Source: Halorussus limi
GTDB lineage: Archaea > Halobacteriota > Halobacteria > Halobacteriales > Haladaptataceae
Assembly: GCF_023238205.1 (NCBI RefSeq)
Contig: NZ_CP096659.1
Span: forward strand, 1,674,001 to 1,738,000
DNA length: 64,000 bases
Reading direction: 5' to 3'
The notes below the pieces were generated by a model. The model was not told the DNA's origin, searched no databases, and saw only the letters and a list, made by a program, of their open reading frames with translations. The position numbers and the translations under genes were made by a program. Shown here one piece after another: positions 58,684 to 61,300 of this stretch. Position 1 is the first letter of the stretch. Each line of letters begins with the position of its first letter.

Positions 58684-58793
58684 ACGCTCTCGTGTCATCC
58701 GACTCGGATAAACGTTCCCCGAGTACGGTTCCCACGTCGAAATTGCCAGCAGTCGGAGTCGCCCGTGGTCAGATTCTCGAACGAATCGGACGG

Positions 58794-59470
58794 GAGAGTG
58801 GCTTTCGTCTGTTATCGCTGCCGAGCGTGTCTCCCGGGTTCGTCGGAACGGGGGAGTGAGAGTAGATTTCGTCTGTTCCGGGTCTCCCCGCGCCGACTCG
58901 TTCGGCGGTCGGAGAGTACGTTTCGTCTGTTCTTGGTACTCGTTCACGTGTCAGAGGAGCGTCCGGGGGAGCGATTGGAGAATCTCTGGGAGTGTCGAGG
59001 GAAGTGGTCCGAGAGTAGTTGGAGAGTGTCTCGGAGGACGTGATTCGGAGGTAATCGAGCCACAGAGTGAGAGTACGTTTCGTCTGTTCTCGCAAGCGGG
59101 GTCGGCCGCGGGGACGCCGGGGCGTGAGTGGATTTCGTCTGCTTTATTGGGGGACCGGCGAATGCTGAACTGTCGATGAACGCCGAGAGGTGTCGGCGGA
59201 ACACGTGAGCCAAATGCTGAAGGGAGCGATGTCCACGGGGCAGACGGAAGACAGGAACGAGTCCAGAACAGACGGAGAGTACGTTTCGTCTGTTCTCGCG
59301 TGCGGAACTATCTGTCCGATTCGGGTACTCCTGAGGACTCGACCAAAACTGATAGTTTATATCTTCGTGTAGCGGCAAACCCGAACTCGGGCGCTCTCCC
59401 GTCCTTTCTCTCCCGTATTTCTCACGAAACGTACTCTCCCTCACGGACTTAAAGAGCGAGAAACAAACGA
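58794..59470. other. Candidate replication origin with ORB-like repeats
   Basis: Six direct copies of an element near GAGAGTACGTTTCGTCTGTT (plus CTCG in the best copies) start at 58794, 58858, 58912, 59069, 59124 and 59275. Two inverted copies lie at 59424-59438 (ACGAAACGTACTCTC) and about 59457-59475 (diverged, GAAACAAACGAAAC). Between the two sets is an AT-rich stretch with a 7-bp inverted repeat (AACTATC 59306-59312, GATAGTT 59351-59357) and TTTATATC. The orc1/cdc6 gene follows. Inverted ORBs around an unwinding element next to the initiator gene is the archaeal origin layout. No gene was found here. Confidence 0.78.
59265..59296. repeat. 10-bp inverted repeat formed with one ORB-like copy
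   Basis: AGAACAGACG (59265-59274) and CGTCTGTTCT (59287-59296) are perfect arms around 12 nt. The half CGTCTGTTC belongs to the sixth direct copy of the origin repeat, so this copy has a partner in opposite orientation. Confidence 0.65.
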
Positions 59471-59487
59471 AACAGGAGAACGGTGGC

Positions 59488-59496
59488 TTTATATAT
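59488..59496 (+). promoter_or_regulatory. TATA box of orc1/cdc6
   Basis: TTTATATAT centred about 32 nt before the ATG at 59524. A GGAGGT at 59505-59510 lies in between, probably upstream of the transcription start. Confidence 0.55.
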
Positions 59497-59523
59497 TTTC
59501 TCTCGGAGGTTCGACCGAGAACA

Positions 59524-60723
59524 ATGGGCGGGCTGTTCAGCGACGTCACGGACACCATCTTCCTCGACAAGGAAGTCCTCGAAGAGGAGTATCAGCCGGA
59601 CGAAATCCTCGAACGCGAGGAGGAGATAGACGAGTACAAGGCCGCGTTCAAGGACGTCCTGTTCGGCAGGAACCCGTCGAACGTCATGCTCTACGGGAAG
59701 GCCGGCGTGGGGAAGACCGCGGTCACGCGCTACGTGCTGGAGGAACTCCAGACCGAGACCGACCAGCGCGAGGCGGCCGACGACCTCTACGTCCACCGCC
59801 ACAACTGCAACGGCGACACGATGTTCAGTGCCGTCCGGACGCTCGTGAACGGACTCCTCCCGTCCGGGAGCGCGTCGTTCCCGAAGAAGGGGCTCTCGAC
59901 GGCGGACGCGCTCGAGGAGTTCTACAGCCAACTCGACCGCCTCGGCGGGACCCACTTGGTGGTCTTGGACGAAATCGACCACCTGCAGGACGCCAACGAA
60001 CTGCTCTACGAACTCCCTCGGGCCCGCGCGAACGACTACATCGCCGAGGCGAGAATCGGCGTCATCGGCATCAGCAACAACTACACCTTCAGACAGCGCC
60101 TCTCGGCGAAGGTCCAAGACGCGCTGAAGGAGGAGGAAATCTCGTTCAGCACGTACGACGCCAACGAACTCCGCGCGATTCTCCACGACCGCGCGGAGAA
60201 GGCGCTCTCGGACGACAGCTACTCCGACAGCGCCATCGCCAAGGCCGCCGCGGTCGCGGGACGCGACACGGGGAGCGCCCGGCAGGCCATCGACCTCCTC
60301 CGAAAGGGTGCGGAAATCGCCGAGCAGAACGACGAACCGATGGTCGAGGACGACCACATCGGACTCGCCCGCGAGGCCGTCAAGCGCGGCCGCCTACAGG
60401 ACAAAATCGAGGACCAGTCGCTCCACGCCCGCCTCGTCCTCGAAGCGGTCGCCCGACTCGACCACGTCGGCGAGACGCCCGCCCGCTCGAAGGAGATAAT
60501 GAAGATGTACCGCCGCGTGGCCGCCAAGCGCGCCGAGGAGCCGCTGACGACCCTGAAGAGCATCCAGAACCACCTCAGCGACCTCTACATGCTCGGGTTC
60601 CTGCTCCGCCGCGAGGAGAACGAGGGCCGGAAAGGCGGGTCGTACCACGAGTACGACCTCGACATGGACCCCGACGTCGTCTTCGAGGTCTGCGACGAAC
60701 TGGACGAAGAAGAGGCGGTGTAG
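59524..60723 (+). CDS. Orc1/Cdc6 replication initiator
   Basis: A 399-residue AAA+ protein. Walker A is LYGKAGVGKTAVTRYVL (about residues 56-72), Walker B is LVVLDEIDHLQDANEL, sensor-1 GVIGISNNYTF (the Asn), and LRAILHDRAEKAL. The C-terminal winged helix contains TPARSKEIMKMYRRVAAKRAEEPLTTLKSIQNHLSDLYMLGFL. It binds origin repeats and loads MCM. It lies beside a repeat array that is probably its own binding site. Which Orc1 paralogue it is cannot be decided here. Confidence 0.93.
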   Translation: MGGLFSDVTDTIFLDKEVLEEEYQPDEILEREEEIDEYKAAFKDVLFGRNPSNVMLYGKAGVGKTAVTRYVLEELQTETDQREAADDLYVHRHNCNGDTMFSAVRTLVNGLLPSGSASFPKKGLSTADALEEFYSQLDRLGGTHLVVLDEIDHLQDANELLYELPRARANDYIAEARIGVIGISNNYTFRQRLSAKVQDALKEEEISFSTYDANELRAILHDRAEKALSDDSYSDSAIAKAAAVAGRDTGSARQAIDLLRKGAEIAEQNDEPMVEDDHIGLAREAVKRGRLQDKIEDQSLHARLVLEAVARLDHVGETPARSKEIMKMYRRVAAKRAEEPLTTLKSIQNHLSDLYMLGFLLRREENEGRKGGSYHEYDLDMDPDVVFEVCDELDEEEAV

Positions 60724-60790
60724 CGACCCCGTTCTTGCGACGGTCAAAGGGGCGCTCGGAACCGGGCGCGCCGGAAAACGGAACACGTTC

Positions 60791-60865
60791 GGAGGGCCGA
60801 AGAGGTCAGGCTGTCGGAGGGCCGAAGACCGTCAGCGAGTGGAAGGGCCGAAGACTGTCAACGCT
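60791..60865. repeat. Three iteron-like repeats downstream of orc1
   Basis: GGAGGGCCGAAG occurs at 60791-60802 and 60816-60827, and GGAAGGGCCGAAG at 60841-60853. Spacing is 25 bp, each unit followed by a GTCA-containing tail. The sequence differs from the origin repeat on the other side of orc1. It could be a second set of initiator sites or a terminator-type feature. Confidence 0.55.
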
Positions 60866-60883: not shown

Positions 60884-61300
60884 TCAGTCGATGTCGGCGC
60901 GGGCGAACGAGAGGTAGCCGAGTGCGGGCGGGACGACCATCCACGCGAGCAGTACGACGACCACGGTGACGCCGCTGACCGACCCGCTCGTCTCGAACGC
61001 GCCGCCGGGGATGAGTCGGAGCGACCGAAAGTACGCCTCGGTGGGGCTCAGCGTGGTGAAGACCTGCCAGAGTCCGCCGGAGAACTGGACCCCGAGTAGC
61101 AGGTCCGCCGCACCGGCGATGACCTGGGGGACGGTGATGGGCGATATTCGCGACCAGAAGAGCGTGAACACGAAGTACATCACGACCGTGTTCGTCATCG
61201 CTCGGCTTCGACTGTCGCTCACGGCGGAGACGGCGACGCCGACGCCCACGTACGACCCCGCGAACAGGAGCGTCAGCCCACCGAACGCCGCAACCACGTC
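60884..61300 (-). pseudogene. C-terminal fragment of an ABC-2-type permease
   Basis: About 135 residues: VAAFGGLTLLFAGSYVGVGVAVSAVSDSRSRAMTNTVVMYFVFTLFW, then a periplasmic loop with FTTLSPTEAYFRSLRLIPGG and a last TM VSGVTVVVVLLAWMVVPPALGYLSF. SRSRAM and the loop are typical of the C-terminal half of ABC-2 (NosY-type) permeases. The N-terminal TMs and the partner ATPase are absent. The upstream sequence belongs to a different fragment, so a deletion joined them. It is probably non-functional. Confidence 0.7.

Follow-up and report, generated by a model that had tools for sequence, protein, structure and literature searches.

The orc1/cdc6 locus and its intergenic repeats

The stretch of DNA analyzed here (the window) covers 64 kb, from 1,674,001 to 1,738,000, of the 3.58-Mb chromosome of Halorussus limi; the whole genome amounts to 4.62 Mb, and its four other contigs are probably plasmids or minichromosomes. 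An 840-bp intergenic gap (58684-59523) separates a PQQ beta-propeller gene from an orc1/cdc6 gene, which is a genuine member of its family (388.8 bits for TIGR02928, with a cut-off of 181.3). It is one of 15 orc1/cdc6 genes in the genome, many of which have box sets of their own. This gene is not the conserved oriC1 Orc (orc7/HVO_0001 type) and belongs to a different family; the oriC1-type Orc of the genome lies at C1:1284908-1286167, in the split form seen in Halobacterium (L161/L166). The gap contains six direct boxes, one inverted box and one core-only half-site. The features are listed below, with box mismatches counted against GAGAGTACGTTTCGTCTGTT.

58683, - strand: start of the PQQ beta-propeller gene, a clear lipoprotein-type start
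58794-58813, + strand: direct box 1, GAGAGTGGCTTTCGTCTGTT, 3 mismatches
58858-58877, + strand: direct box 2, GAGAGTAGATTTCGTCTGTT, 2 mismatches
58912-58931, + strand: direct box 3, perfect (0 mismatches)
59069-59088, + strand: direct box 4, perfect (0 mismatches)
59124-59143, + strand: direct box 5, degenerate, GTGAGTGGATTTCGTCTGCT, 5 mismatches
59275-59294, + strand: direct box 6, perfect, the last before the AT-rich stretch
59341-59371, no strand: AT-rich stretch between the opposed boxes, candidate unwinding element
59419-59438, - strand: inverted box, GAGAGTACGTTTCGTGAGAA, 4 mismatches, all in the core half; GAGAGTAC half perfect
59462-59473, + strand: core-only half-site AACAAACGAAAC, in the orientation of the inverted box
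59486-59500, + strand: TATA-like element TTTATATATTT of the putative orc1/cdc6 promoter, from sequence reading
59524-60723, + strand: orc1/cdc6, 399 aa, with AAA+ ATPase, lid and winged helix; initiator-specific motif (ISM) at about residues 113-137
59887-59889, + strand: codon of K122 in the ISM

The first-pass annotation had described six direct and two inverted copies of a repeat, surrounding an AT-rich stretch with an inverted repeat and ending 50 bp before orc1. All six direct copies were found again beside the gene (58794, 58858, 58912, 59069, 59124 and 59275), and 50 bp indeed separate the end of the half-site from the ATG at 59524. As for the inverted copies, the one at 59419-59438 is a full box and the second is only the core-only half-site. 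Between box 59275 (+) and the opposing box 59419 (-, with its altered core half), the DNA is AT-rich to a modest degree, 72% AT over 25 bp in a region of about 67% GC, and its palindrome is short and imperfect. Of the Halorussus orthologs, four have a perfect counterpart of direct box 6 at nearly the same position (-238 to -242), and a fifth has a degenerate counterpart at -235; one ortholog has the identical altered inverted box at -105.

We then considered whether the repeats are specific to this site. Seven sites with at most 5 mismatches were found in the gap, against 2 in the rest of the 64 kb, and TTTCGTCTGTT at no more than 1 mismatch occurred nine times in the window, for an expectation of 0.41 and a maximum of 2 across 100 shuffles. 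The whole-genome search proposed in the first-pass annotation returned eight matches to the 18-mer at up to 3 mismatches, five at the locus and three scattered singles, while the reversed 18-mer gave none; no second cluster of the box family was present anywhere in the 4.62-Mb genome. A repeat common across the genome is ruled out by these counts. Decayed protein-coding sequence is ruled out as well, since the boxes lie ahead of the lipoprotein-type start (58683) and are also present, differently spaced, upstream of the orthologs. A viral origin was also considered and rejected, with a single weak match in IMG/VR and a single 33% partial match in phages. Taken together, the repeats are real, locus-specific and not decayed coding sequence.

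Several observations concern the surroundings. A unit of about 25 bp that holds G(A/G)AGGGCCGAAGA occurs in three tandem copies at 60788-60860, directly behind the stop codon of orc1. These copies are followed at 60884-61297 by an ABC-2 type membrane protein that is in frame only over its C-terminal half (Pfam model positions 154-283 of 283); its reading frame seems broken near 61300, and relatives stand in the matching position at L055, L057 and L300. About 45 kb downstream of the putative origin, outside the window, lies a 30-kb low-GC island (G000:C1:1778001-1808000; L248, L249) with 46-58% GC vs about 67%. The PQQ beta-propeller gene is not a conserved partner: it was found upstream in L056 only and, by annotation, near the Haloferax mediterranei homolog.

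Box anatomy and the G-string position

Read on the opposite strand, the box is AACAGACGAAACG-TACTCTC and stays in register with the usual origin-recognition boxes (ORBs) of haloarchaea, ACAGCGGAAACG-GTGGGGT. In the same genome, the Orc1 at C2:302955 adjoins boxes ACAGCGGAAACGnTGGGGT, with which the - strand box ACAGACGAAACGTACTCTC aligns gap-free; ACAGnnGAAACG is common to both, and GTGGGGT (the "G-string") in the C2:302955-type box corresponds to TACTCTC in the window box. The core TTTCGTCTGTTC had been suggested as possibly a little-described variant, a view that does not hold: this core is the one usual in haloarchaea, and its reverse complement ACAGACGAAA aligns with ACAGCGGAAA. Judged from this alignment, the unusual half of the box is GAGAGTAC, which occupies the G-string position. 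A third form, GAACACTCGAAAT-GACCCCTC, with a C-run instead of a G-run, was observed on Haloferax mediterranei pHME132 (L168) and in Halarchaeum rubridurum (L116).

Other box types were also recorded. Five TACTCTC-type loci (L090, L094, L096, L180 and L233) have, at similar positions, a recurrent minority box GACAGACGAAA(C/T)GAGGTGTG with a partial G-string. Own repeated box types lie near the orc genes C1:263668, C1:2275592, C1:2796960, C2:147846 and C2:302955 of the H. limi genome, and also near C3:42693, C4:115852, C4:139165 and C5:2655.

Haloarchaeal origin predictions accept only G-string repeats (PMC4595724 and PMC3528665), and mutation of the G-string abolished the function of Haloarcula hispanica oriC1 (PMC3936714). 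Because the published predictions demand a G-string, TACTCTC-type boxes would be passed over, and the window locus, with TACTCTC at that position, is left out of the G-string ORB class of Wu et al. In the other respects compared, the origins of that class (Wu et al., 2012, PMC3528665; oriC1, oriCa, oriCb and others) are alike: they have repeats in the intergenic region next to orc/cdc6, boxes that face each other across an AT-rich stretch, a box type linked to the Orc type, and the core ACAGnnGAAACG, likewise in register. A haloarchaeal ORB lacking the G-string was described nowhere in the open papers searched, which included neither Coker et al. (2009) nor the supplementary files of PMC3528665; it may have been listed earlier without remark. 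Matches to the literal box sequences in open papers were all unrelated among the 30 of 89 that were listed. The orc1/cdc6-linked origin is presented here as a known kind, and the G-string-less box as apparently new.

Distribution of the Orc family and residue 122 of the ISM

Among 391 Halobacteria genomes of 86 genera, we found members of the Orc family, mostly 55-98% identical, in 81 genomes and 31 genera; orthologs at 90% identity or more were present in 7 of 18 Halorussus genomes. Nearly all family loci have such boxes, which vary in number, spacing and flanks, the usual layout being one direction upstream and the opposite direction either immediately ahead of the gene or downstream of it. 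The search of related genomes thus placed the same boxes beside 68 relatives of the adjacent Orc1, in keeping with the earlier proposal of an orc1-linked module with its own ORB type. These 68 TACTCTC loci contain 303 TACTCTC-type boxes vs 7 of G-type (purity about 97%), and the 21 sister-clade G-string loci contain 100 AGGGGTG vs 5 TACTCTC boxes (about 95%). Loci were labeled by the majority of their boxes, a few by eye where counts were low, so that the information lies in how pure the loci are and in how they cluster on the protein tree. On this tree, the box module changes twice between the TACTCTC and G-string types; changes per group numbered 3-5, compared with 20-28 in shuffles, and none of 500 shuffles was as low. 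Since the relatives of the Orc carry the same boxes, these are putative binding sites, and very probably the ORBs of the adjacent Orc1 family.

The G-string sister clades (L088, L091, L095, L217b and others, in Halorubrum, Halobellus and Haloquadratum) have an Orc1 55-60% identical and share boxes in both flanks with the identical core, AACAGACGAAACG in the 19-member clade. By contrast, their right half is AGGGGTG and residue 122 of their ISM is T. The nearest outgroup Orc, orc8 of Halobacterium NRC-1 (L156; 45-48% identity), likewise has boxes in both flanks; these boxes, AACACTCGAAATnCGGGGTG, differ in retaining the G-string. As this outgroup and most other box types examined here have a G-string, it is probably the ancestral form. 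The Halobacterium member of the family (L106/L155) is, as far as can be told, none of NRC-1 orc6, 7, 8 or 10; published NRC-1 primers mapped orc8 on L156, orc7 on L161/L166 and orc6 on L165, and the orc10 primers had no match among the orc loci of DSM 3754. TACTCTC and G-string members coexist in three genomes (G109, where they are 8 kb apart, G229 and Halospeciosus flavus), which fits an avoidance of cross-talk.

In the Orc1-DNA structure of Aeropyrum pernix (2V1U), the AAA+ domain contacts the G-track through its ISM (PMC9738581). The best group-separating column of the whole alignment was residue 122, which immediately precedes GL in the ISM (FPKKGLS): it is K or R in 67 of 68 TACTCTC members (S in the remaining one) and T in all 21 G-string members, as well as in 2v1u and 2qby_A. 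It is also K in the CCCC-type members, L168 and L116 included. Residues 128 (D vs H/V/I/Y) and 132 (mostly E vs T/S) came next. The swap of the box half was apparently accompanied by a matching change in the DNA-reading loop of the initiator. Since the module switched only two or three times, the residue link amounts to just one or two independent contrasts. ISM columns also discriminate two clades that share the TACTCTC module, so that enrichment in the ISM alone is no evidence and the specific residue pattern is. We therefore regard the link between residue 122 and the module as a specific hypothesis, short of demonstration. A general link between this residue and the G-string in other Orc families was weak, with two K/R cases only and noisy motif calls: L006 and L008 (both of the H. 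limi genome) have K/R at this position and no GGGG run in their boxes. In the clade column comparison, winged-helix residues showed no consistent enrichment as determinants of core type.

A probable accessory origin and the alternative readings

Opposed boxes around an AT-rich stretch beside an orc gene are the defining layout of archaeal origins (PMC4010727). The window locus has this layout: the boxes (58794-59473) adjoin orc1/cdc6 in an intergenic region, those at 59275 and 59419 enclose the AT-rich stretch at 59341-59371, and, as far as the sequences tell, the box type follows the Orc tree. We thus propose, with a probability of roughly 70%, that an accessory Orc1/Cdc6 replicator-initiator pair has its replicator half in this region, a proposal that includes the module swap and the reading by the ISM. 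The Orc1 encoded at 59524 would bind the boxes; the conserved core ACAGACGAAAC would be recognized by its winged helix, and the adjoining GTACTCTC by the ISM loop in its AAA+ domain. In this subfamily, GTACTCTC has taken the place of the G-string, and ISM position 122 is K/R instead of the T of G-string readers. Boxes 59275 and 59419 would bracket the AT-rich stretch to be unwound for MCM loading, and the extra direct boxes may set affinity or titrate Orc1. Firing would probably be weak, or occur only on failure of other origins. The modest AT-rich stretch and the single full inverted box, with its altered core half, speak against this explanation, as do the missing GC-skew switch at the locus and the small number of independent contrasts behind the residue link.

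The half-site at 59462 lies directly upstream of the TATA-like element, and in 36 of 87 members, of both module types, a half-site lacking the right module precedes the start codon by 40-80 bp. Its simplest reading is a likely autoregulation, in which Orc1 would control its own gene through the core half-site beside the promoter. This conserved promoter-proximal half-site would also suit boxes that regulate or titrate Orc1, or regulate other genes, without any replication start, the Orc1 then controlling transcription in the manner of Orc1-2 from Saccharolobus islandicus, a non-initiator (PMC9738581); in Haloarcula hispanica, an ORB-rich region without origin activity titrates Cdc6E (PMC3936714). 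We consider this unlikely, given that the full boxes stand in opposite orientation on the two sides of an AT-rich stretch, as they do in proven origins (PMC4010727), that family members occur on plasmids as well as chromosomes, and that the genome has no other box cluster to regulate.

The module lies between the same neighbours in five Halorussus genomes; four others (G016, G004, G007 and G014) have the flanking genes at the site without orc or boxes, and in G013 and G017 the module is located elsewhere. Cousins at 69-72% identity are on smaller replicons listed as plasmids. The suggestion of a chromosomal or integrated origin is consistent with this patchiness and these empty sites, which indicate a module that is probably accessory or acquired. 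On this chromosome, the oriC1 gene (1.285 Mb) and the orc locus at 2.80 Mb each coincide with a change of sign in the GC skew, and no switch was detected at the window locus; the skew gives no support for this locus as a dominant origin. Patchy presence, plasmid cousins and the missing skew switch would equally suit the relic of an integrated-plasmid origin unable to fire, with boxes kept by chance or by recent arrival. However, seven species have an intact Orc1 with 90-98% conservation, and all of them keep perfect boxes though the spacing changes, which suggests selection and makes a relic decidedly improbable. A main chromosomal origin fully active in every cell cycle, despite the full anatomy and the site conserved in five Halorussus chromosomes, is very hard to reconcile with the absent skew switch, when two other origins of the chromosome do switch, and with a close ortholog (at least 90%) in only 7 of 18 Halorussus genomes.

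The accessory origin that we favor resembles oriC4-cdc6H of Haloferax mediterranei, a dormant, recently acquired origin that fires when the main origins are deleted (PMC4595724). Both are accessory chromosomal loci whose context varies, each is confined to a minority of the species of its genus, and neither shows a sign of a main-origin role; oriC4-cdc6H was chosen by the G-string rule and its firing was demonstrated, whereas the window locus has no G-string and is known from sequence. On this likeness, we call the locus an accessory origin, probably weak or dormant.

A broader proposal, to which we give even odds, is that the box read by haloarchaeal initiators has two parts, a slowly changing core recognized by the winged helix and a replaceable module (AGGGGTG, TACTCTC, or ACCCCTC as on Haloferax mediterranei pHME132) recognized by the ISM, and that this defines an overlooked class of origins. 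Lineages could then gain orthogonal origins by swapping the module and a few ISM residues, 122 foremost. The G-string has so far been taken as the hallmark of haloarchaeal ORBs, and it is essential at the single origin where it was mutated. Related origins without a G-string, next to same-core sisters with one, constitute a natural experiment that asks which part of Orc1/Cdc6 reads which half of the site and how initiators avoid cross-talk, and specificity becomes testable by the exchange of one or a few ISM residues. Overall, these results imply that current predictions miss origins; if the two-part reading is true, an origin class whose Orc family is present in about a fifth of Halobacteria genomes would have been largely overlooked because predictors demand the G-string.
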